IMG/VR virus record: IMGVR_UViG_3300032309_001546
Coordinates: 1 to 64,000 of that record
DNA length: 64,000 nt
Origin: a virus
Strand: one strand, 5' to 3'
Part shown: piece by piece, positions 10,001 to 44,379 of the stretch
Numbering within the stretch: the stretch's first letter is position 1
Layout: every line of letters starts with the position of its first letter
Notes under the pieces: generated by a model
The model's input: only the letters and a program-made list of their open reading frames with translations
Databases searched by the model: none
What the model was told of the DNA's origin: nothing
Position numbers and translations under genes: made by a program

Positions 10001-11082
10001 AATGGACAAACTCAAGAAGAATTGCTCTTGGCTCTTCAAAGCCAGAAGATTATGGTTCTGCTATTCGTCAAGCTTCATTTGTTGACGCTTTTGCTGGAGT
10101 AAGAAATGATCCGTACCAGCCATTTATTGCTGAGTATGTAGTTCCATTTGTTGCTGACTATCAGATTGCGGAAAGCGGAGCTGCTTATTATGGCCAAACA
10201 ACTTCAGTAGCTGATCTGCTATCAGACGGTACATTTGTAATTGGTGATGCAATACAAAATGCTTTATCTATCTCTACAGCACAGCCTTTTCTTGGATGGA
10301 AAGCAAGTTCGCAAAAATATTATTTAGCTTTGTTTAACTCACAAGATAATAGCTATACAACAAGATTAGACTCAATGGTTAGAGGGTCAGAAGAAATTTA
10401 CATTGAGAAATCTGGTGAGAGAGTTCCATTCTCATATGCGGGAACTGAATATCCTGAATATGACACTCATTTTCCTCAGTCGCTAATAGATTTTAAAGTA
10501 AATCTTCATTACTATATTGGTCAAAAAAATACTGGATCAATTGGAACAGGAGATACAGACAGCCCAAGTGAAGCATCAGACTATAATGGATTAGATTATT
10601 TAAATGTAATCTATCGCAATACTCATAAAATGGTCCCTGCAATAAAAGGAAATATTATTGCTGGAAGTAGTCTTAGCACAGACAATAATGTAATCCCTGT
10701 TGTGTTTAGCTCAAATAATGGGCAATCTAGGTTTCCATTAAATACAGTCCAAGTCAATGTATCAGCCGGACCTACGTATGCGACTGCAGCTTCATCTTTT
10801 ATTCCTCCATATCTAAGTGGATATGATGCAGCACTGGGTGTTGTTCCATCTACAAACTTAATGACTACGTATAGAAACAAGTTTCCTTTGTTTGAAAGTA
10901 GTTATGGAACTTTTATGTCTAATAAACAATTTTGTATACTATTAAATATACAGGCAAAGCCAGTAATAACTGCACAAAACTTACCAGTGCCTTATCAAAT
11001 CTACAAGGGTTTTGGCGGTGAAGTTTATATTAGATTCTCTGGTTGGGTTACCATCAAAGTCAAGACTGCTGACGCGTTCTAA
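7066..11082 (+). CDS. Giant tail/fibre structural protein (1338 aa)
   Basis: The largest protein in the window. It is rich in Gly, Ser, Asn, Thr and aromatic residues, has no cysteine clusters, signal peptide or membrane segments, and reads as a long beta-structured virion protein. A short polar motif with histidines (KHKHDGSD followed by YRIHHNDLL) lies near residues 392-408; similar His-rich turns occur in trimeric phage fibre shafts that bind metal, but this link is an inference. The start follows a GGAAATTGC leader. It is followed by the longest gap in the structural block, 35 nt. No family is recognised; a large baseplate or side-fibre role is assumed from context. Confidence 0.65.
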   Translation: MSDALKTAVNLVQSFTFSDGMQPSAKQFENIFSGLTQGLNIFSNVIGPALNSSVSVLTKNKIVSSHKYNSMMIDTERSNFESDAQESILNTFNLTRILGSHSSLNPLYLPGSVHLVASQSSGYPLATDVKVQQLPFPPTDGYDFEIDDDGRTWVQAANAAAASIVTGAYSFYIDGSGTIYTNRLFKAGASIKYDLRIPNTYGALGSSYNMIPDPSIETLLDADILSRTGDGTYGRVKLSLRSTGSDYSEWTLVLPPVISLKDPLLTSSTQGVANQGFEPFGVFESSDSKKYYGLNSELYLESGGGLIDNNTLVLFNAESGKSYFLDWTSANLPGEEAKRTFYASGSTALLTLFKNDAGNLISSNGGFNTKSFYIFAFGTNISDTLAQVNLNFAKHKHDGSDSYRIHHNDLLGTQNGVQGFSSQTGTWGGLDFVTYNRQFAFSDIEDNVHPQYFHRLGFLHGGTSGKYSDTHYNGTAFAKKADWNFLHGDLVFSPIEKVSRPMLYENLGDSSADPDRNKIDWDLTFDSNEYKGTKYLGNLRSHSLMFGVPLIMNQTAGSNPDGDLDLEPSYNGAVRVSYENGIFYNDTLYDVANQKYRLSKHGFIPGDETGIDGNLSPAFRGLNIGWGNLFFGHREDIFGGRMSGIWIGKTEASAFWRTAEFNVVTTANSQAGKNTNSKIKEGYNYRDGFTVRALKGSSIWLSTGAESPSVNDISTGKNSLGIPGTIALEASYPSSRGTTTSGTDSGIFSLNTKNIYDTYGDAMSSGSGIFLAPGPFIDTAGADSYRNPWVAATMDDYKFASLWDSSSLGPVVTGNIFDGATYAGPGPMLDIFALAPDRQKTNATSNGNIPVGTDSDLLGWVFGRPFIRGTYGINFCVNGGFVNIDTEFKSGYNKKVISSPWGPTSAILKTSTNEYIHREFKFWGKNYNEGPSASADSHENTMGGNINLLYNFGRNYTRFGRSETWSNSTSLSGATGSSQWTNSRRIALGSSKPEDYGSAIRQASFVDAFAGVRNDPYQPFIAEYVVPFVADYQIAESGAAYYGQTTSVADLLSDGTFVIGDAIQNALSISTAQPFLGWKASSQKYYLALFNSQDNSYTTRLDSMVRGSEEIYIEKSGERVPFSYAGTEYPEYDTHFPQSLIDFKVNLHYYIGQKNTGSIGTGDTDSPSEASDYNGLDYLNVIYRNTHKMVPAIKGNIIAGSSLSTDNNVIPVVFSSNNGQSRFPLNTVQVNVSAGPTYATAASSFIPPYLSGYDAALGVVPSTNLMTTYRNKFPLFESSYGTFMSNKQFCILLNIQAKPVITAQNLPVPYQIYKGFGGEVYIRFSGWVTIKVKTADAF

Positions 11083-32880: not shown

Positions 32881-33987
32881 CTATTTTAGTATTTCATTAG
32901 CGATTTTAGCTAACGCAGTTTTTCTAAATAAAACTGGCTGTTTAATCCCCATGGACTTTAGCCATTCTTTTAATTCAATAGGATTTTGCTCTTTATGATT
33001 GAGCAATCCATATCTCTTACAGATATACTCTTTTTCTAAAGGTAAAAGATTATCTAGTACCGAAAGAAAACTCAAGCAAAACGTAACATGATCCATGTTC
33101 ATATCTATTGCTTGGAGATGTTCATCTTTCTTCTCACGATCTACGATGTCAGTCATAGGATCTTCAATCAACGCATGTTCATTATTGTACATTGCTATTT
33201 GATTGTATGGAGTATAGCTATAGATAAAACTAAAAGCATGAGAGACGTTGCTTTCTTTCATCTTAGTTAATTTAGCTAGTTCACTAACTGTCTTATGAGA
33301 GTAGGGAACATTGTGTCTTCTAATTGCTCCTAGGACTTTAGTTATATCAATTGTCAGGTGGACTGGCAAGCGAATTAATCTAGCCTTGTTACTTAAGGCG
33401 CGGGTAATCTTTTGCTTCACCCACCAAGTAGCGTAGGTTCCTAGCTTAACATTCTTGTTAGGATCATAACGGTCGATGGCATATAGAAATCCAAATACTC
33501 CCTCTTGGATAAGGTCATCCACAGACAGGCCTTTACCAGCATAACTGTTAGCAATCTTAAGGATAAGGCGAAGGTTATGAGCAATAAGAGTTTCTTGTAG
33601 TTCTTTGAATATGTCGTCATAGGGCATAATTCCTATAAGGTAATTAAGTTCTTCTTTCTCCGCGACAAGAAGACCATGAGTAATGTCATCATTATCTTTT
33701 GCTAATTTTTCATCAACAATAGACAATCGATCTTTCATGTTTGAGAATTGTTGCTTCAGATAGAAGTACTTGCAAGCAAGACGATGCATTTCTGCATCTT
33801 TCATTCTGGGATGGTTTTTGATATATTCGCTAAGATAAGCAATGCTATCTTTTTCCATGCCATATATAACTGAAGTGGATTCATTCTTAACATGATGATC
33901 GTATGTTAGACTTGTTTTCTTTCTTCGATCAGGAATTATAATATCTATCTTAACTTTGGGAGTTACGCTATTCGGATTCTTGTTCAT
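32881..33987 (-). CDS. Phage-encoded sigma-70-family factor
   Basis: A 368-aa protein with sigma-70 region 2: AHNLRLILKIANSYAGKG, DDLIQEGVFGFLYAIDRYDP and GTYATWWVKQKITRAL, the core-binding and -10-recognising parts. Region 3 (LPVHL..., SELAKLTKMKESNV) and a region 4-like helix-turn-helix near the C-terminus (EYICKRYGLLNHKE...) follow. The first 100 residues are helical and unlike region 1. It probably redirects host RNA polymerase to phage promoters, most likely the late/structural set. The start, ATG with GGAG upstream, overlaps the upstream gene by 20 nt. Confidence 0.9.
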   Translation of the reverse strand: MNKNPNSVTPKVKIDIIIPDRRKKTSLTYDHHVKNESTSVIYGMEKDSIAYLSEYIKNHPRMKDAEMHRLACKYFYLKQQFSNMKDRLSIVDEKLAKDNDDITHGLLVAEKEELNYLIGIMPYDDIFKELQETLIAHNLRLILKIANSYAGKGLSVDDLIQEGVFGFLYAIDRYDPNKNVKLGTYATWWVKQKITRALSNKARLIRLPVHLTIDITKVLGAIRRHNVPYSHKTVSELAKLTKMKESNVSHAFSFIYSYTPYNQIAMYNNEHALIEDPMTDIVDREKKDEHLQAIDMNMDHVTFCLSFLSVLDNLLPLEKEYICKRYGLLNHKEQNPIELKEWLKSMGIKQPVLFRKTALAKIANEILK

Positions 33988-35155
33988 CGCTTGATTCTCC
34001 TACAAGTGAAATTCGCTCAATGTCAGTGACATCTAATTTTGTTAAGTCTCTGGGAGTACCATTTGTCTCATAGCATATATTCTTGAATGGACAATAGCTA
34101 CAATTCCAATCGCCTTTCTTAACTTTCTTGCCTTTACTGAAAAGCTCCATGTCAACTTTTGATAGCTCTTTGCGACCAGCTAGTAAAGCAATCTTAGTCT
34201 GGTCATAGAATAATTCAAAGTCTCTTACTGGCAATGTTTCATTCTCTAAGTGAGTATGAAGTTCTTGATAGCGTTGGAGTATATGCTCAGCATATAAATC
34301 ATACTTGTAAGGTTGTCTATCTACATAGACTCTATGTAAGTACTTGCCACTGGCAATCTTTTCTTTAACAAGATCAATGTCGAACTCTTTACGTTCTCCA
34401 TTTTCACGATTGATATAGGCAAGCTTCCAGTAACGATATTCTTTTTTCAATATACAGAAGTACATATGATAAAGAATAGACTGAAGTAAATGCTCTGGCT
34501 TTGGCTCAGGAATGCTTAACCAATGGCCTTTCTTGCTCTTTACTCCAAAGACTTGTCTTGGTCCTTTGTATCCTGAGATACTCTTAATCTCAATGCCTAC
34601 AATGTTATCTGTTTTAATTTCTTTTGGATCTATAGATGGATTGCCGTCTCTATCAAATGTAGGAAGAGTGTAGTCTTCTTTGTTTGGTATTGCAACTGCA
34701 AGATCTAATTCACCACTGATAACAGGCTTTAATGCTTTATATGGGAAAGGAAGTTCCCATTTAAATCTAAGGCTATTTGTTTCATATACACAAGCTCTTT
34801 TGCTTTCATCCGTAATAGCTATTTCTGCATACTTACTTAATGAAAACTTCCAAAGCTCTTTAGGTGTGAAAGGCTCAGCCGCAAGAACATGATCAAGATT
34901 AGGCTTGACATTGGTTGCCTCCATTCTTTGAATCATAGCTCTAAACCATGACTTGCGAAGGCATCCTCCAATAATAAGATCCTCATCGTGTTCGTTTTTA
35001 ATCTTTGCGCTAGCTTCACTGGGATATAAATTTATATCTGGTCGAAGACGGCTTGGTTGATTACCAATACTTCGATCTAAAGTTTGCCAAAAAGAAAAAG
35101 GGTACTGCTCACTAGCCAGCACCACTTCTTTCTTCTTGCTAGTTTTCTTTGCCAT
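33968..35155 (-). CDS. Cas4-like PD-(D/E)XK exonuclease
   Basis: A 395-aa nuclease when started at MAKKTSKKKE, which has AGAGG upstream; the longer TTG-initiated frame would run almost into the tRNA. It has the Cas4/RecB core: an early Cys in GGCLRKSWFRAM, GELDLAVAIP with the catalytic Asp, then IVGIEIKSISGYKG with the Glu-x-Lys pair. Near the C-terminus DWNCSYCPFKNICYE supplies the other three iron-sulfur cysteines. Such enzymes trim DNA ends during recombination and replication. It overlaps the sigma-factor gene by 20 nt and is the first coding gene after the tRNA and the consensus promoter. Confidence 0.85.
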   Translation of the reverse strand: MAKKTSKKKEVVLASEQYPFSFWQTLDRSIGNQPSRLRPDINLYPSEASAKIKNEHDEDLIIGGCLRKSWFRAMIQRMEATNVKPNLDHVLAAEPFTPKELWKFSLSKYAEIAITDESKRACVYETNSLRFKWELPFPYKALKPVISGELDLAVAIPNKEDYTLPTFDRDGNPSIDPKEIKTDNIVGIEIKSISGYKGPRQVFGVKSKKGHWLSIPEPKPEHLLQSILYHMYFCILKKEYRYWKLAYINRENGERKEFDIDLVKEKIASGKYLHRVYVDRQPYKYDLYAEHILQRYQELHTHLENETLPVRDFELFYDQTKIALLAGRKELSKVDMELFSKGKKVKKGDWNCSYCPFKNICYETNGTPRDLTKLDVTDIERISLVGESSDEQESE

Positions 35156-35195
35156 ACTAGCCTCTGTACGAATATAAGAGAATATTTTAATCAAG

Positions 35196-35268
35196 CTCTG
35201 GCTATAGGATTTGAACCTATGACCTAGAAATTAACAGTTTCCCGCTTCTACCACTGAGCTAAGCCAGA
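35196..35268 (-). tRNA. tRNA-Asn (anticodon GTT)
   Basis: The reverse strand folds as a cloverleaf of 73 nt. The 7-bp acceptor TCTGGCT/AGCCAGA is perfect. The D arm is GCTC-AGTGGTAG-AAGC with one mismatch, the anticodon stem GGAAA/TTTCT holds the loop CTGTTAA (anticodon GTT, Asn), and the T arm ATAGG-TTCAAAT-CCTAT is perfect. The discriminator base is G, as in bacterial tRNA-Asn. The CCA end is not encoded. It sits just downstream of a consensus-like promoter and may supply Asn codons used often by the phage. Confidence 0.93.
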
Positions 35269-35693: not shown

Positions 35694-36854
35694 TTACTTT
35701 AAGTAATTTAATGTTCCGCAATACTTAACGTCAGTCTCGTTAAATAATGTATTGCCATCTTCGTCTTGGTAAATGACTGCATATCCTAATGTAACTGCTT
35801 CCTTTGTAAACTTAGCACTGCGCTGATAGTCCATCAACTTAACCAAACAACCTTGTTCCATTACAAGTTTACCCTTGTAGACAAGCTTACCTAGCTTATG
35901 TGTATGTCCCATGACAACGCAATCGTAACTATCCCATTCTAGGAAGTTTTGTAAATAATCGCAAGCTTTAACTACAGTGCCTAGAGGAGCGCTGAGATAG
36001 GTGCTTGGGTGCAAGAATACGGTTTTATTTAGTTGGAGAATCCAAGGGTTACCCTGTGGATTGTATATTACGTTTGGTAGTTCTACAGTGCCAACATGTG
36101 CACCATCTTCATCTAAGATATAACCCTTTGCTAGATAGTATAGAGTGTCTTTACATGCAAACATTTGCATGGTGGGATCAATCTTATTAGCAAAGTATTT
36201 TTCAAGTCTATGCTCGTGGTTGCCACGCACGATATAAACTTGAGGAAAGATTCCAGCAACTTTACGAACAAACTCTAAAGCCATTGTATACTCTAGATGC
36301 ATTGGAATATTCTTATCCTTGGCAAAGCTACTAGCGGCATAGCCATCGAGTAGGTCGCCATTAAGAACAAGAATGTCTGCATCCTTATGTAGCTCAATAA
36401 CTTCGTCAATTAGTTCTTGGTTTTGGAATGGAAAATGAATATCACTTAAACTAAGAATCTTAATTGCTGCTTCTGCAGTGCTAGCCTTCTTAGTCAGATA
36501 AACCTTATCCTTGGCGTCTTTAACAGCTTCAAGATAGGCTTGTATACTACCTGCCTTCTCAACATCCTTAGTAACGTCCTTGGGGTCTTCTGCGCTTGCT
36601 AAAGCCTGGATAACAGTTGGCTTAGTCGGGCCAATCTTCTTAGTCTTGATATTCTTACTACTAGGAATCTTATAGTAATTAATAATCTTATTCAGGGTAG
36701 AAGTGGCTTTAGGATTCTCACCCTTCTGTACTTCTATTGCGCCTCTCTTGGCAAGGCGCTCTAGCGTGTGTCTAGATATATTGTACTTAATACATAGTAA
36801 AGTACCAGGAATCCAAGTATCAAGATCTTCTTTCTGCCAAATAACTGTATTCAT
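35694..36854 (-). CDS. Metallophosphoesterase with N-terminal helix-turn-helix-like domain
   Basis: A 386-aa protein. The calcineurin-like core shows the metal motifs in order: SDIHFPF, LNGDLLDG, VRGNHEHRLE and VVMGHTHKLG. This set hydrolyses phosphoesters using two metals. Residues 1-65 precede the core and look like a helix-turn-helix (WIPGTLLCIKYNISRHTLER, then KRGAIEV), which would bring the enzyme to DNA. Comparable fused proteins are found in phages, but the substrate (DNA, RNA or nucleotide) is unknown. It is encoded just downstream of the polymerase gene. Confidence 0.85.
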   Translation of the reverse strand: MNTVIWQKEDLDTWIPGTLLCIKYNISRHTLERLAKRGAIEVQKGENPKATSTLNKIINYYKIPSSKNIKTKKIGPTKPTVIQALASAEDPKDVTKDVEKAGSIQAYLEAVKDAKDKVYLTKKASTAEAAIKILSLSDIHFPFQNQELIDEVIELHKDADILVLNGDLLDGYAASSFAKDKNIPMHLEYTMALEFVRKVAGIFPQVYIVRGNHEHRLEKYFANKIDPTMQMFACKDTLYYLAKGYILDEDGAHVGTVELPNVIYNPQGNPWILQLNKTVFLHPSTYLSAPLGTVVKACDYLQNFLEWDSYDCVVMGHTHKLGKLVYKGKLVMEQGCLVKLMDYQRSAKFTKEAVTLGYAVIYQDEDGNTLFNETDVKYCGTLNYLK

Positions 36855-36863
36855 ATATGGACC

Positions 36864-39278
36864 TTACTTTATTAAGGTAATTTTTCCGACTGGGCGAATC
36901 CTTAAGAAATCATCTTTCTTAGTTGCTTTGTAGGAGAAAAATAATAGGGAACAATAGTCAAGCTTTTCTTTCAGTTCTTCGTATTGATCTGAGAACAGCG
37001 TGACTTCTGATATAGAAGATAAATCTTCGATTGTCAATGTTGCCATTAATTTTCCTTTTGATTTACCGCTTTTGATTTGCTGTTCTTTAATATGAGATAC
37101 CGCGACGAGCAGATTGCCTTCGTTGCTATTTGTCTCATCAATATCTTCTATCTGATTAATTAAGATTCCGGGTGGAGTCTTAGTAATATAAGATAGTGGA
37201 TGGCGACTAATAAAGAACTTACAATACTCTGATTCCCACTTAACAATTTGCAGTGGGACTTTATAGTCAGACGTTTTCTTGATAGATTCTAGGTCAGGGA
37301 AAGTAGGCTGATCAGGAACTTTAAGAACTAATGGCTTCTTAGGTCTTGGTTCTGAATACACTTTCTTACCATCTGAGTCTATACTTAAACTAATTACGCC
37401 TGCCTTTAATCTTGCAGACCAATCGTCGAGCAAGGCGGGATAAGCATCTACTTCCTTGTTACGCTCAAAGGCTTGAACTATTCTTGTTTGATAGTTTTCA
37501 ACCTTTGTATAGTAATCAAAGATATCAGAAAGCTTATCTACAAGCTTGACTCTGTCGTAGCCAAAGCTATCGAATGCGCCGACCTTTGCAAGTATACTAA
37601 CAACACCAGAATTAATCTTTGTGCGATTGATTCTAGTAAAGAAGTCAGCCATGCTTGTAAAAGACTTGCGACCGCGTGCCTTAAGTATAAGGTCACTAGC
37701 TTTGTTACCGATGCCATTGATCATGCCAAGGCCAAACAAGATAGTATTGTCATCCAACTTAGTAAAACCAATATCACTATTGTTAATACTAGGTGGAAGA
37801 ATGTTGTAACCCATCTGGCGATACTCGTTGATATATCTGACTAGCTTCTCAGGCTTACCACTTCTGACAGTCATTAGCGTAAGCATAAAGTCTGTAGGAT
37901 AGTAAGTCTTAAGATAAGCATTGAAGTAAGTAATGAAGGCATAAGCAAGAGCATGACTCTTATTAAAACCATACTCAGCAAATGCTGCAATGACATTCCA
38001 AATACGAGTTGCCTCTCCCATATCAATCTTATGAAGACGAGCACAGCCATCTACAAAAAGTGTGCGATATTCTGCCATCAATGTAGCATCTTTCTTGCCC
38101 ATTGCTTTTCTAATCTTATCAGCCTCTTGGAGTGTTACTCCTGCAAGTATCTGACAAGCGGCCATAATCTGTTCCTGATAAATAAGAACACCGCCGGTCT
38201 CAGCAAGTACATCATCAAGTAATGGATGTAACTTATTCTGAGTCTGACGAGTCTTCTTATAGTCAATGTAGTCCTGAAGCAGACCTGAGTCACGAGGACC
38301 AGGACGATTAAGAGCTGAGAAAACTGCAAGATCCTGGACACTCTGTGGCTTGAGATCGGCTACAAGTTTTAGTAGATAAGTCTCTTCCATCTGGAATAAG
38401 CCAGCTGTGAATCCTTTATTGATTAATTCAAACACATTGGGATCATCAGTAGGAACTTCTTCCTCTAGCCACTTGAGTGACTTACCAATACGCTTACAAG
38501 TAAGATCGTTAATTGTAAGGCAATCGATTCTAAGAATGTCGAACTTAATAAAGTTCATTTTCTCTAGAGTTGGACCTTCCCATTGGGTAAGATTGAACCA
38601 GTCTGCGCCTTCAGTCTTGCTCTTCCGGATTGGAATCATCTGATCTACTGGACTTGTGCCAATAAGAACTGCACTAGCATGAACGCTAACTTCCTTTGCT
38701 TGTCCATCTACTGGTCCGCAAAGGCTAAAGATATCTTGATTAGCTTCTACAATCTTTTTGATGTGTTCGCTATTGTCTTCGATTAGTTCTTTATAAGTTA
38801 CATACTTGCCACGGTGACTTTCAGGCAAGCTGTCAGCTAACCGTTCCGCATCGGCAATAGTTCTATATGTGCCATCTGCATGCTTAAGTAACTTAGTGAA
38901 AGCTTTAACGCTTGTCTTAAGAGACCAAGGCTTATAGGTAGATACACGAAGAACACGATCATGACCATACTTAGTTTGCAGTGCCTTGATTAGATCATCA
39001 GCACGAACATTACAAAAGTCAGTATCGATATCCGGGCCTTCGCCATCAACATGATAAGTAACACGCTCATCCGGATTATAAGTGTCAGACAAGCCAAGCG
39101 CATATAGTAATGCAGAGTTACTTTTATTAGCAAGTTTTGCTTTAGACTCAAAGGCCTTGTTGATAAAAGCTAGAGTTTCATCGGTAAGATACCTGACCTC
39201 AAAGTCCAAGTAGTCTTTGCTTATTACATTTAATCTATCATCTGAATAGAATTTATTAAGGTTTTTCTTGTTGATCAT
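36864..39278 (-). CDS. dnaE: DNA polymerase III alpha subunit, C-terminal half (split DnaE)
   Basis: An 804-aa protein containing the catalytic half of a bacterial-type DnaE. The active-site motif GPDIDTDF lies at residues 81-88. The thumb/fingers region follows (FSALNRPGPRDSG, GGVLIYQEQIM, AFAEYGFNKSHALAYAFITY), then a helix-hairpin-helix-like part (FGLGMINGIGNKASDLIL) and a C-terminal OB domain (GKLMATLTIEDL). It lacks the PHP and first palm parts, which are encoded by a separate upstream gene, so the enzyme must be assembled from two chains. The first 75 residues have no counterpart in one-chain DnaE. The start overlaps the small intervening gene by 23 nt. Confidence 0.93.
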   Translation of the reverse strand: MINKKNLNKFYSDDRLNVISKDYLDFEVRYLTDETLAFINKAFESKAKLANKSNSALLYALGLSDTYNPDERVTYHVDGEGPDIDTDFCNVRADDLIKALQTKYGHDRVLRVSTYKPWSLKTSVKAFTKLLKHADGTYRTIADAERLADSLPESHRGKYVTYKELIEDNSEHIKKIVEANQDIFSLCGPVDGQAKEVSVHASAVLIGTSPVDQMIPIRKSKTEGADWFNLTQWEGPTLEKMNFIKFDILRIDCLTINDLTCKRIGKSLKWLEEEVPTDDPNVFELINKGFTAGLFQMEETYLLKLVADLKPQSVQDLAVFSALNRPGPRDSGLLQDYIDYKKTRQTQNKLHPLLDDVLAETGGVLIYQEQIMAACQILAGVTLQEADKIRKAMGKKDATLMAEYRTLFVDGCARLHKIDMGEATRIWNVIAAFAEYGFNKSHALAYAFITYFNAYLKTYYPTDFMLTLMTVRSGKPEKLVRYINEYRQMGYNILPPSINNSDIGFTKLDDNTILFGLGMINGIGNKASDLILKARGRKSFTSMADFFTRINRTKINSGVVSILAKVGAFDSFGYDRVKLVDKLSDIFDYYTKVENYQTRIVQAFERNKEVDAYPALLDDWSARLKAGVISLSIDSDGKKVYSEPRPKKPLVLKVPDQPTFPDLESIKKTSDYKVPLQIVKWESEYCKFFISRHPLSYITKTPPGILINQIEDIDETNSNEGNLLVAVSHIKEQQIKSGKSKGKLMATLTIEDLSSISEVTLFSDQYEELKEKLDYCSLLFFSYKATKKDDFLRIRPVGKITLIK

Positions 39279-39570
39279 AATCGTCCAATAAACAATGTTT
39301 AAGAAATACTTGTCTGAAAAGATTTAAAGTTTCCTTTTTCTTCTCAGAGTCACTTGTCCAGTAATGACGAAAAAATAAATACAAAAAAGTAAAGAATGGA
39401 ACTTTATAGATCCAACCTAATTTTTCATGCCAAGTTTGAGTATGGTCTAGCGTAAAACTTTTTACTGGAGAAAAAGTCTCAGTTTCTTTGTTCCAAGTAT
39501 ACTTCTCTTTAAAAACTTTTCTGTAAGATAACTTCTCAGGTGTATATACTATAGACTTTTCATTAGACAT
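39256..39570 (-). CDS. Small protein encoded between the DnaE halves
   Basis: A 104-aa protein of unknown family, started at the ATG in AAAATGTCTAATG, which overlaps the stop of the N-terminal DnaE gene by 8 nt; a TTG two codons earlier is less likely. It overlaps the C-terminal DnaE gene by 23 nt. It is basic and aromatic (KLGWIYKVPFFTFLYLFFRH), and has no intein, homing-nuclease or membrane signal that I can name. Tight overlaps on both sides suggest the three proteins are made together and that this one may be a subunit or assembly factor of the split polymerase. Confidence 0.65.
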   Translation of the reverse strand: MSNEKSIVYTPEKLSYRKVFKEKYTWNKETETFSPVKSFTLDHTQTWHEKLGWIYKVPFFTFLYLFFRHYWTSDSEKKKETLNLFRQVFLKHCLLDDYDQQEKP

Positions 39571-40846
39571 TTTCAAGCTCTTTAATATCTTCTGAGTAGT
39601 CTAAAGTAATTCGGACTCGACCAGGATTGAGAAAGCGCTCGAACAGCAGACCATGTTTAACAGGATCAAGATGCTTAGCTGTGATTCCTAGTGACCATGA
39701 GATCAAAGATCCACCACCAGAACCACGCGCTGGGCCAACAGGTATACCCATATCCTTAGCTAGGCTAACATAGTCTTGAACGACAAGGAAATAGGAACTA
39801 TACCGTGCCTCGTCAATGACTTGGAACTCATATCTAATTCTATCCTTGTAGGCTTTAGGGACATCAGCCCAGCTCTTTACGCCAAGCCGAGATATAAGAC
39901 CAGCCTTAGCCTTCTTAAGAAGCATTAGGCTTGTCCCCTCAGGCGTCATTCCTTCAAGCTGAAGATTCGGTGCCTTAGTTACTCGCTCAAAGTATGAGCC
40001 ATCTACAAGATCTGCTACATGCTGAGTATTAGTGATTGCTTCATGTGGTAACTGCCAGTCATCACAAAGAGTCTTTGCGAACTCTGCATCATACATCCAA
40101 GCATTATGATCTTGAACTTCATATGGCATTGTGTCTGGAGTCTTATGCATGCTCACACACATAACATAGCTACGCAACTTGTACTGATCTTGGTTCTGAT
40201 GATGAGCATCAGCTGTAAGTACAAGAGGAATATTCTTGCGTTTGCTTAGATCAATTAGATATTGATTGTAACCATACTGCTTTTCAACATTATTATGCTG
40301 AAGCTCTAAGAAGAAGCTGTCGTCGCCGACCGCCTCCTTAACTTCATCACACCATCTATCTATCTTTGCATGTTCACCCCAGTGCCAATACTTAAAGCAC
40401 TGACTACTGATACAAGTACTAGTAGCAATTAAGCCTTTAGCGTGTTGCTTAAAAGTATCTAGATCGATACGAGGATAGCGATAAAAGCCATCTTCATATG
40501 AATACTTAGTAAGCTTCATTAAGTTCTTATAACCTTCTTCGTTCTTAGCAAGTAATAGGAAGTGGCCATTGTTAACTGCTTTCTCGGCTACGCCATTCTC
40601 TGGCATAAAATCAGACTTAGTCTTGGCATCGCCAAAAGCAAGATATGTTTCATTACCAATGATAGGCTTTACGTTAGCAGCACGACAGCCCTTTACAAAT
40701 TCTGGGATGCCACCCATATATCCATGATCTGTCAATGCAACTGCATTCATTCCTCTGGCAGCAACAGTCTTACCCATTTCATCGGCTGGCTGTAAGCCAT
40801 CAAGCAATGAGTAGTAGCTATGCGCATGGAGATGTACCATTCCCAT
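39563..40846 (-). CDS. dnaE: DNA polymerase III alpha subunit, N-terminal half (PHP domain)
   Basis: A 427-aa protein started at MGMVHLHAHSYYSLLDG, which has GAGAG upstream; a TTG 17 codons earlier gives only a non-conserved extension. It contains the PHP domain (HLHAHS, ALTDHGYM, KPIIGNETYL) and the first polymerase segment ending in ARGSGGGSLISWSLGIT and LLFERFLNPGRVRI. In one-chain DnaE this last motif runs directly into the PDIDxDF active site, here in a separate gene. The break is therefore exactly at the palm. PHP histidines are retained, so a metal-dependent proofreading activity is possible. Confidence 0.92.
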   Translation of the reverse strand: MGMVHLHAHSYYSLLDGLQPADEMGKTVAARGMNAVALTDHGYMGGIPEFVKGCRAANVKPIIGNETYLAFGDAKTKSDFMPENGVAEKAVNNGHFLLLAKNEEGYKNLMKLTKYSYEDGFYRYPRIDLDTFKQHAKGLIATSTCISSQCFKYWHWGEHAKIDRWCDEVKEAVGDDSFFLELQHNNVEKQYGYNQYLIDLSKRKNIPLVLTADAHHQNQDQYKLRSYVMCVSMHKTPDTMPYEVQDHNAWMYDAEFAKTLCDDWQLPHEAITNTQHVADLVDGSYFERVTKAPNLQLEGMTPEGTSLMLLKKAKAGLISRLGVKSWADVPKAYKDRIRYEFQVIDEARYSSYFLVVQDYVSLAKDMGIPVGPARGSGGGSLISWSLGITAKHLDPVKHGLLFERFLNPGRVRITLDYSEDIKELENV

Positions 40847-41854: not shown

Positions 41855-43291
41855 TTACAAAAGTAGTTTGTTGTACCTCTCAAGAAACTCAGATTTAGCA
41901 AATTTTTTGTAATCACTAGGCAGTATTAGATAGAAGTTTTCAGGAATAAGTTCTTTTTGTATTTCAGGAATTATGCCGTCCGTAAAGCAAAGCACTGCAT
42001 CATATTTATATCTTCCGTTGTATTGGCCAATTATTTTTAACGCCGGATTCAAATCTGTGCAGCCACCGCCTTTCCATTCAATCGTCTCTGCAAAGTTCTT
42101 ATTTCTTGCCTTCTCTATGTCTCCTCTCACCTCGCTATCATTCATAACATAATGAACACTAGCATAACTTGCTAGCTTCCTTAAATAAGATACAAACTTT
42201 TCAGCAAGCTGAGTATCAATACTTCCAGAAGTGTCGAAAATACAAGCAATTAGAGGCTTGTCTGATTTCTTAGGACCAGGTAGGATTCCAGGCAAAACTA
42301 CGTTATAGCTTGCCCATGAGACACCTGTCTTGTATCTTTTGCCAGGTCGGTTTAGAGTCTTTAGAAAAAGAACAGCATCTCCTTCGTAAGGTTTTACCTC
42401 AATATTTTTACTGTCAAATTTATCTAATTTCTCGAATGAAAGAAACGGAGTAGTATTAATTTCAACAATTTTTGCAATTTGTTTTTCAATTGAACTAATT
42501 CTTTCATTTTGTTCTTCCTCGGAGATATCACTATCATCAAGGACCATGTCCATACTTAACTGATTTATTTCTTTTTGTTCTTGCTTTTCTATAAAGTCTT
42601 GATAATCGGGACTATTTTTTAGCCAGTTAAAGATTTCTTTAGCTGTAACATTATAGATTCCTTTTCTTAATCCATATTCTGCATGGAACAACTTACTGTT
42701 AGGATGTAAATAGTAAGCAGATAAATCAGGATGAGCAAAAGCAGCTTGCTCATCAATGCGGAAAGCATTGAAGAAAAACTTACCTTGTGCATTCTGCAAA
42801 GGATAATTTACAAAATCACTTGGATCATCTAGTTGAGTAAAAGATTCTACATATTCATAAAGTAACTCAGTATTAATTTTCATGTCCTGAGCAACATTCA
42901 TAAGATAGCGATCTTCAGCTGGGACCTTAAACATAGAAACAGGATGAGCATAAACAAAATGCTTTAGCTCATGTAGCAAGATAAAATAGAAAGTCTTATC
43001 ACTTAATCTGCTAATGTTATCTATGTTAAAGTATAAAGCATATTCTTTAGTACTAGGAGTCCAGGCGATACAAGCTATAAACTCAGGATTAAAACCTTGA
43101 CCTGTAGCTTCTTCTTTGGTTAAGAAGTATCTGTCTAGACAAATCAAGTACTCAGATAGATTAATAAATGTATAAGCAATTGCATATGGGATGTAATCAG
43201 TAATAGGACTGTCTTTGCCCTCCTTGATAGCAATCAAAGAGCGACAAAGATCAGTAATCTTATTAGCGTAAATCTTTTTTAAAGCATCCAT
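41855..43291 (-). CDS. VWA-domain protein with HExxH-like metallopeptidase region
   Basis: A 478-aa protein of the DUF2201/CoxE-like kind. The N-terminal part has LLHELKHFVYAH (His107, Glu108, His111, His116), a zinc-peptidase-like motif. The C-terminal VWA domain has a MIDAS pattern: IFDTSGSIDTQ, then GGGCTDL and CFTDGI. Between them is a charged coiled coil (about residues 225-285). VWA proteins of this type work with MoxR ATPases as chaperones that insert metals or remodel complexes. The MoxR gene lies directly upstream with a one-base overlap (TAATG). Target in the phage is unknown. Confidence 0.85.
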   Translation of the reverse strand: MDALKKIYANKITDLCRSLIAIKEGKDSPITDYIPYAIAYTFINLSEYLICLDRYFLTKEEATGQGFNPEFIACIAWTPSTKEYALYFNIDNISRLSDKTFYFILLHELKHFVYAHPVSMFKVPAEDRYLMNVAQDMKINTELLYEYVESFTQLDDPSDFVNYPLQNAQGKFFFNAFRIDEQAAFAHPDLSAYYLHPNSKLFHAEYGLRKGIYNVTAKEIFNWLKNSPDYQDFIEKQEQKEINQLSMDMVLDDSDISEEEQNERISSIEKQIAKIVEINTTPFLSFEKLDKFDSKNIEVKPYEGDAVLFLKTLNRPGKRYKTGVSWASYNVVLPGILPGPKKSDKPLIACIFDTSGSIDTQLAEKFVSYLRKLASYASVHYVMNDSEVRGDIEKARNKNFAETIEWKGGGCTDLNPALKIIGQYNGRYKYDAVLCFTDGIIPEIQKELIPENFYLILPSDYKKFAKSEFLERYNKLLL

Positions 43292-44379
43292 TATTTCTTT
43301 ATATGAAGGCTAATCATTTCATAGAACTCGGGCACAAACTTCTTAGCATAATCTCTTAGATACTTAGTCTGATCAAGTTGTTCCTGTGACATATTAGGAA
43401 TTAGATTTCTATATGTAAAGTAGATGCCAACTAGCTCTGATCTAGAAACATCTGGAGTCTTTAGCCAAGCTTCAAGTTTACCATTATAGAAACTTGCATC
43501 TGCTAGCCAGTCTCTTCCATTTAGAATCTGGAACCATTTAAAGGCAAGATTTGCTTTAACTAATCCGGTAGCTAAGGCAATAATTGCTTCTCTTAGGTCG
43601 CCTGTGATGTTCTGATTATTATTATTAATCTTCCACCACATACACCAAGCAGCAAGCCTAGCAAGTATCTCTATGGTACGAGGACATGGGCTAACTTCCT
43701 TATCAACAGACCAGGTTCCGGTTAGTTGATTATTCTGAAATCCCTCTATTAGATCAGTACTATTATTAAGTATAAAGCTAAAAGCAGGATCTATATGACC
43801 TAACCTTGACTCAAGGAAGGAGTTGGTATCTAGTGCGTAGTGCACATGACTCCATCTAGCTTTCATTGCTTTATCAAGCGTGTCTGTATTGAATTCTCCA
43901 GTAGGTGGGTTACAAGCAGATAGTAAACGACTGACAGGAGGTAGTTTATACTCTCCAAGGCGACGTTCTGCGGTAATACTCATCATTGCATTTATACCTT
44001 CTTGCGTGCCGCGATTTAACTCGTCAGCAAACAGGACATATATACCACTGAGGCTAGCAGGAATCCAAGATGGCCTGGTCTTAGTATGAGTCATATACTG
44101 ATGATCAACAACTGGGATACCCCAGTCAGCTGTGTCAGTATGCGCAAGACGAAGATCATAAAAGGTCTGAGGACCTAACTTATTAATCTTAACACTAGCA
44201 AACTCACTATTACAGAACATAGGAACATCTGCTTTTATATCAGCAAAAAAGCTCCTAGTAGTCTGTTCAATGATTGTACTTTTACCAATACCACTGGCTC
44301 CCCAGACGCAGACAGGAATATCTGCGTCCAGGGAGATTCTAATAGCAAGCTCCAATTGCTTGTTATTAATTGTAGACAT
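43291..44379 (-). CDS. MoxR-family AAA+ ATPase
   Basis: A 362-aa AAA+ protein. Walker A is WGASGIGKST (residues 26-35), Walker B is YVLFADELNRGT, and the sensor region SRLLSACNPPTGEFN follows. It is the partner of the VWA protein encoded by the next gene, with which it shares a one-base overlap. MoxR proteins use ATP to drive remodelling of a target through the VWA protein. Start has a normal ribosome site and lies 2 nt after the RecA stop. Confidence 0.88.
   Translation of the reverse strand: MSTINNKQLELAIRISLDADIPVCVWGASGIGKSTIIEQTTRSFFADIKADVPMFCNSEFASVKINKLGPQTFYDLRLAHTDTADWGIPVVDHQYMTHTKTRPSWIPASLSGIYVLFADELNRGTQEGINAMMSITAERRLGEYKLPPVSRLLSACNPPTGEFNTDTLDKAMKARWSHVHYALDTNSFLESRLGHIDPAFSFILNNSTDLIEGFQNNQLTGTWSVDKEVSPCPRTIEILARLAAWCMWWKINNNNQNITGDLREAIIALATGLVKANLAFKWFQILNGRDWLADASFYNGKLEAWLKTPDVSRSELVGIYFTYRNLIPNMSQEQLDQTKYLRDYAKKFVPEFYEMISLHIKK

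Follow-up and report, generated by a model that had tools for sequence, protein, structure and literature searches.

Several enzymes are known to be encoded in two pieces. In group 2.2 jumbo phages, a minimal DNA polymerase III (Pol III) alpha subunit is split into nucleoside triphosphate (NTP)-binding and metal-binding proteins, alongside PolB (Iyer et al. 2021, PMC7824862). The split gp43 (PolB) of Aeromonas phage 25 yields gp43A and gp43B, which co-purify and polymerise, and the split NrdA of phage Aeh1 is active (PMC2988022); PolB of Methanothermobacter is also split (PMC7776575). Here, we analyze a dnaE gene, encoding Pol III alpha, that lies in two frames on the minus strand of IMG/VR virus record IMGVR_UViG_3300032309_001546. 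The stretch analyzed (the window) is one strand, positions 1-64,000, of a full record of 146 kb. Our results make it very likely that this locus specifies a permanently two-chain DnaE, assembled without splicing and with one active site across the interface, that this state is old, and that the small gene between the halves (gene S) came later.

The two halves, an N-chain of 427 aa and a C-chain of 804 aa, flank gene S (104 aa), which overlaps the N-chain gene by 8 nt and the C-chain gene by 23 nt, in agreement with a first-pass annotation made from the sequence alone. The break falls after FERFLNPGR and before the catalytic PDIDTDF strand. Pfam family PF07733 (DNA_pol3_alpha) is shared between the chains without gap or overlap (profile positions 4-100 in the N-chain, 101-259 in the C-chain), so that the split does lie at the active-site boundary, where the annotation had placed it. 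Alignments to alpha subunits in the PDB stop (N-chain) and begin (C-chain) at this same junction. In one-chain phage DnaE, the linker here has 1-8 residues in 82 of 84 sequences, and exactly 3 in 73; the remaining two carry full inteins nearby. The annotation was right about the junction, but in letting the halves meet directly at PDIDTDF it overlooked a 14-residue tail on the N-chain (N-tail) and an 80-residue leader on the C-chain (C-leader). The features are listed below; dN/dS, the ratio of nonsynonymous to synonymous substitution rates, was computed by the Nei-Gojobori method with the nearest sequences, and pLDDT is the predicted local distance difference test score of AlphaFold2 (AF2) models.

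39563-40846, minus strand: N-chain DnaE, PHP domain and first part of the palm (Pfam PHP 2e-41; PF07733 4-100; PDB alpha subunits to 2.7e-58; dN/dS 0.016-0.034)
39707-39736 (codons), minus strand: deoxynucleoside triphosphate (dNTP)-binding motif GPARGSGGGS of the N-chain palm
39566-39607, minus strand: N-tail, 14 aa, TLDYSEDIKELENV, after NPGRVRI (alignment; pattern listing; dN/dS 0.03-0.19)
39256-39570, minus strand: gene S, 104 aa, between the halves, with a hydrophobic transmembrane (TM)-like segment; no known family
36864-39278, minus strand: C-chain DnaE, with leader, catalytic strand, thumb, fingers, HhH and OB fold (PF07733 101-259; finger 4e-44; HHH_6 3e-23; PDB 3.6e-82)
39039-39278, minus strand: C-leader, C-chain residues 1-80, before PDIDTDF (homologous leaders; hhalign with shuffles; AF2 pLDDT 85-91 for residues 1-70)
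39015-39035, minus strand: PDIDTDF catalytic strand (D83, D85)
38538-38540, minus strand: third catalytic aspartate, D247 of the C-chain

Taken together, the chains contain all parts of a C-family DnaE in order: Pfam, PDB and PHROG matches place PHP, a palm with GS and DxD..D motifs, fingers, HhH and OB across the two proteins. The OB fold is weak in Pfam (0.06), yet it is aligned in the AF2 model of the C-chain (pLDDT 86.5, predicted template modelling score 0.75; PDB structure match with Z 22.6). D83, D85 and D247 of the C-chain are the catalytic residues of DnaE enzymes, and these positions, together with P82, D87 and K245, are invariant across 63 sequences. Neither PolA nor PolB was found in the 146-kb record, and the two-chain DnaE appears to be the only recognisable replicase of this phage.

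The arrangement is not confined to one assembly. The N-S-C trio is preserved in six further IMG/VR contigs from several metagenomes, which with the window form the window clade (identity of 95-98% in the N core and 91-96% in the C core). Values of dN/dS are 0.02-0.03 for both cores, 0.11-0.14 for S, 0.03-0.19 for the N-tail and 0.07-0.11 for the C-leader; all of these segments are under purifying selection, and the tail, S and leader form a single uninterrupted block that evolves faster than the cores. We therefore reject a frame or sequencing error at the break, given several independent contigs and the dN/dS values; the assembly error that the annotation named as a possible refutation, one that would restore a single frame, did not hold, since six other contigs share the trio. 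Its second possible refutation, related phages with an intact chain and no small gene, is found among distant relatives only, and near relatives are all split. The split dnaE is a variant, not a broken gene.

The same break extends well beyond this clade. A survey of 80 loci gave the first distant C-half with a homologous leader (L040, where no N-chain was found and the contig ends 0.9 kb upstream), and searches with leader-only profiles returned 24 loci, corresponding to about 18 contigs outside the window clade, a few of them near-duplicates. Their C-chains are mostly 25-30% identical to that of the window. In contigs that reach far enough, the N-chains (419-484 aa) end in FERFLNxGR plus a tail and the C-chains open with a leader. 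The window shares with this wider family the C-leader with NxxNSxxLY, the FERFLNxGR end with its tail, and the synteny: RecA upstream, N, C, a metallophosphoesterase (35-42% identical) and a PD-(D/E)XK-like protein (21-29%). Specifically, the syntenic genes of the window are the following.

35694-36854, minus strand: metallophosphoesterase, downstream of the C-chain
33968-35194, minus strand: PD-(D/E)XK/Cas4-like protein (PHROG "CRISPR/Cas system associated"; PD-(D/E)XK/Cas4 is our own reading)

In the wider family, N and C are spaced by 0.25-4 kb with unrelated genes within, and S is absent from all N-C intervals. As such, the two-chain state is independent of S and does not itself require it, since these polymerases are split without S between N and C. 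In seven members, the interval holds an antisense gene (~120-180 aa) whose copies look related (L131:7585-7956, minus strand, with equivalents in L133 and L135-L139); the L131 copy has no PHROG match. With the same break, leader and tail in about 18 further distant contigs, the two-chain polymerase suggested by the annotation is backed by sequence evidence. These comparisons indicate that the two-chain state is old and predates the divergence of the window clade and the ~18 other uncultured phage contigs. No member was found among phage isolates, where the leader search gave chance-level matches only; a match in Caulobacter CcrColossus runs antisense to a hypothetical gene, one in QdP_Psa3 lies inside a one-piece polymerase gene, and both were rejected. 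The leader was not found in bacterial genomes either.

Leader and tail of this kind occur only in the two-chain family, and their sequences hint at how the family arose. In one-chain DnaE, the catalytic strand is preceded by the palm helix GSLVAYALGITD; the best-conserved piece of the leader, NPHNSILLYITGLTD, is similar to this helix. Aligned by hhalign without the PDID anchor, leader and palm score 20.86 over 11 columns, a value reached by 3 of 400 column shuffles (p~0.01). Residues 1-70 of the leader are modeled by AF2 at pLDDT 85-91, with one-chain relatives supplied from PDID onward only. In addition, the C-chain model overlaps E. coli alpha in five E. coli entries, the aligned ranges starting at residues 16-26 of the model and 283-289 of the solved chain, an overlap that is suggestive, since the ranges give the first and last aligned residues only. 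On the other side, N-tails read R-x3-P-x-[IL]-F in all 15 wider-family N-chains, where one-chain enzymes mostly read R-x3-P-D-I-D, so that the N-tail looks like a catalytic strand that has lost its aspartates and kept R-x3-P. The leader is probably a duplicate of the palm start that has degenerated. Since the leader resembles the palm start and the tail the catalytic strand, each chain seems to carry both sides of the junction, with the other chain's half degenerate. We hold with moderate confidence that an overlapping duplication followed by reciprocal loss produced the two chains; the alternative is a clean fission, with leader and tail added later.

In the assembly that we propose, the PHP domain and, within the palm, the GS motif that binds dNTP phosphates would come from the N-chain, and the metal-binding D83, D85 and D247, the thumb, fingers, HhH and OB fold from the C-chain. 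The two chains would associate unspliced to form a single palm and active site across their interface, of which the N-tail and the 80-residue C-leader are probably part. Split gp43 and split NrdA are precedents for such an assembly. The family probably began with an insertion or a partial duplication at the active-site junction, where mobile elements have caused repeated breaks; reciprocal loss would then have left the N-tail without catalytic aspartates and the leader without the GS motif, and S would have joined later, in the window clade, where it overlaps the N-chain gene at its end.

Several observations weigh against this reading. In the C-core tree, the leader family forms one clade (Shimodaira-Hasegawa-like approximate likelihood ratio test, 99), but the window clade joins it at a support of 41, after four long branches were dropped. 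The shared leader and synteny point to one origin, for which the C-core tree alone is insufficient. Homology between leader and palm extends, by sequence, over one helix (11 columns), and the structural ranges mark end points only. The catalytic activity of the two-chain DnaE is itself predicted from conserved motifs.

The alternative that survives best concerns the role of S. It is a real, selected gene restricted to the window clade, and it may serve as a stoichiometric third subunit clamping N-tail and C-leader, making the replicase a coupled trio. S is indeed present in every contig spanning the locus, with the 8-nt overlap with N in 7 of 7, it is under purifying selection, and S, tail and leader all evolve faster than the cores. 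The same three-gene order, which the annotation proposed to look for in related phages, recurs in the six other window-clade contigs, but the wider two-chain family does not have S between N and C. S is 80-82% identical in the nearest relatives and 34% in the next (L003-L005). No Pfam or PHROGs match was obtained at E<=1, no significant relative in INPHARED, and IMG/VR relatives come from the window clade only; among Pfam and PDB profiles, the only matches are weak ones to flavivirus M, which we read as similarity of TM segments. Comparisons of S with leader, palm or N-chain by hhalign were not significant. The best 19-mer has a Wimley-White octanol value of -10 to -14 kcal/mol, a strong hydrophobic TM-like segment, and the AF2 model is poor (mean pLDDT 56). 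Position between the halves is by itself weak evidence. We regard the third subunit that the annotation considered, and the clamp with it, as unlikely. The coupled trio that it proposed fits the window clade, where the 8-nt N/S overlap is constant, but the S/C overlap varies there (23 or 29 nt, with an uncertain C start in L003-L005) and relatives keep N and C apart; the enzyme therefore does not owe its function to coupling. In our main reading, S is later than the split, and possibly membrane-associated or accessory. A combined scheme, in which a full-size palm came to be shared by overlapping duplication and reciprocal loss and a lineage-specific small protein was later taken up as an extra subunit, is a tentative one.

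It is considerably less probable that S and the extra sequence are a decaying homing-endonuclease insertion, and the split young and merely tolerated. There is precedent in Lactobacillus phage ATCC 8014-B2, whose dnaE is broken at the same junction by a NUMOD3 homing-endonuclease gene (Pfam, PHROG), and such genes break other phage genes too (PMC2988022). However, S matches no endonuclease family in Pfam or PHROGs, its dN/dS is that of a gene under selection (0.11-0.14), and the split with its leader is far older than the window clade.

A cryptic split intein or a trans-splicing RNA joining the halves is very improbable. A phage contig, L017/L019, does have a split intein at exactly this junction, its C half starting with IntC (AILVHN|SPPDIDIDF) and its N half yielding Hint at 8e-9 in Pfam; by contrast, no protein of the window has a Hint or Intein match at E<=1. 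Rfam found no group I or II intron in 35-42 kb, a scan that was also blank for L026, which is thus no positive control; the absence of intein and intron motifs claimed by the annotation stands. The leader ends in DG|EGPDID or [DNG]G|SPPDID, with no Asn immediately before the junction, the tail (14-35 aa) lacks block A, Pfam and Rfam gave no match, leader and tail are conserved sequences in their own right, and the interval between the halves is protein-coding and under purifying selection. Where splicing does occur in the two-chain leader family it can be recognised, as some C-chains have split inteins at the FNKSH site. Finally, that the N-chain is a lone PHP enzyme and the C-chain has another role is hardly credible: the genes can be up to 4 kb apart with others between, but each protein lacks half of the palm, their motifs are complementary and conserved, and both chains are present wherever a contig covers the region.

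Many C-chains of the wider family have a further break downstream, in several of them with split inteins at FNKSH, which means that spliced and unspliced breaks coexist in one polymerase. This second break, with split-intein halves and other genes between them, is seen in L133:7953-14118, where the intein halves are clear, and in L136, L137, L141, L144, L147 and L149-L151. C-chains are also interrupted at ..RRAMG in L135, L139, L145 and L146, and near NRPGPL in L152.

Other breaks were noted in dnaE genes. In L017:1247-7307 (= L019:6329-12389), an exonuclease domain is fused to the N half of the split-intein dnaE, and the halves are separated by a 353-aa gene that weakly resembles homing endonucleases. 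In L112:4399-7977, a lone in-frame TAA interrupts dnaE; a 52-aa tail separates it from the palm start, and 20 residues lie between it and PDIDTDF. This may reflect readthrough, two chains or a sequencing error. One-chain dnaE genes of L053 and L057 carry full inteins with a long middle part in the palm GS motif (HN|SVGGS and HN|SAAGS), a second intein site adjoining the active-site junction. In Enterocloster phage CB473P1 (OP172755.1, 53586-56665), a DnaE C-part match covers two hypothetical proteins and a DNA endonuclease, likely another mobile-element break. In Rhodococcus phage Trina and Microbacterium phage Karate, the split is at a different site, around the PHP/palm border, and these cases were set aside.

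Around the locus, a tRNA gene (35196-35268, minus strand) stands between the PD-(D/E)XK-like gene and a small gene that follows the metallophosphoesterase, and L003 carries a tRNA gene at roughly the corresponding position (10008-10080). At 41855-44379, a VWA-like and AAA+ ATPase pair beside PhoH is 45% and 57% identical to L003, and the adjacent PhoH and DnaE are 91-95% identical; the pair is another locally divergent block.

A split through the active site, kept over deep divergence, is a natural test of two-chain palm assembly. It also raises the question of why the same junction breaks repeatedly, by split intein, by homing endonuclease, in the minimal jumbo version and in the two-chain leader family. 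Such an enzyme could provide a natural split polymerase for tools, and annotation pipelines are prone to call its halves fragments or pseudogenes.

Among known systems, the split Pol III of group 2.2 jumbo phages is the closest, being a two-protein C-family palm broken at the same junction. Both pieces could be identified in 121Q, RaK2 and Atu_ph07. Matches to the N unit, which ends in NEFLK or SEFLE, are significant (E 1e-8 to 2e-6, with PF07733 above cut-off); those to the C unit, which starts just before its DIDID motif, are weak (0.003-0.01). These open reading frames, of ~180 and ~200 aa, lack PHP, HhH, OB and such a leader, lie at a distance from each other in the genome and occur alongside a family B replicase, whereas the window polymerase is of full size, includes PHP, leader and tail, and has no other recognisable replicase beside it. 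The "fractured" split-intein dnaE of cyanobacteria and of L017/L019 likewise comprises two dnaE genes (in L017/L019 the junction is the same and other genes lie between them), but its halves have Hint domains, none of which were found in the window, and are predicted to be ligated. The dnaE of Lactobacillus phage ATCC 8014-B2 (PHROGs 7513 and 12219) has the same order of N half, gene and C half at the same junction; its middle gene, unlike S, matches homing endonucleases, its C half lacks such a leader, and its halves are ~25% identical to those of the window. The split gp43, NrdA and Methanothermobacter PolB share the two-chain state but belong to another polymerase family or enzyme, with breaks that are linked to homing endonucleases or of unknown cause. 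Against this background, the window polymerase is a previously undescribed form of split Pol III, at full size, with PHP, leader and tail, and as the sole recognisable replicase.

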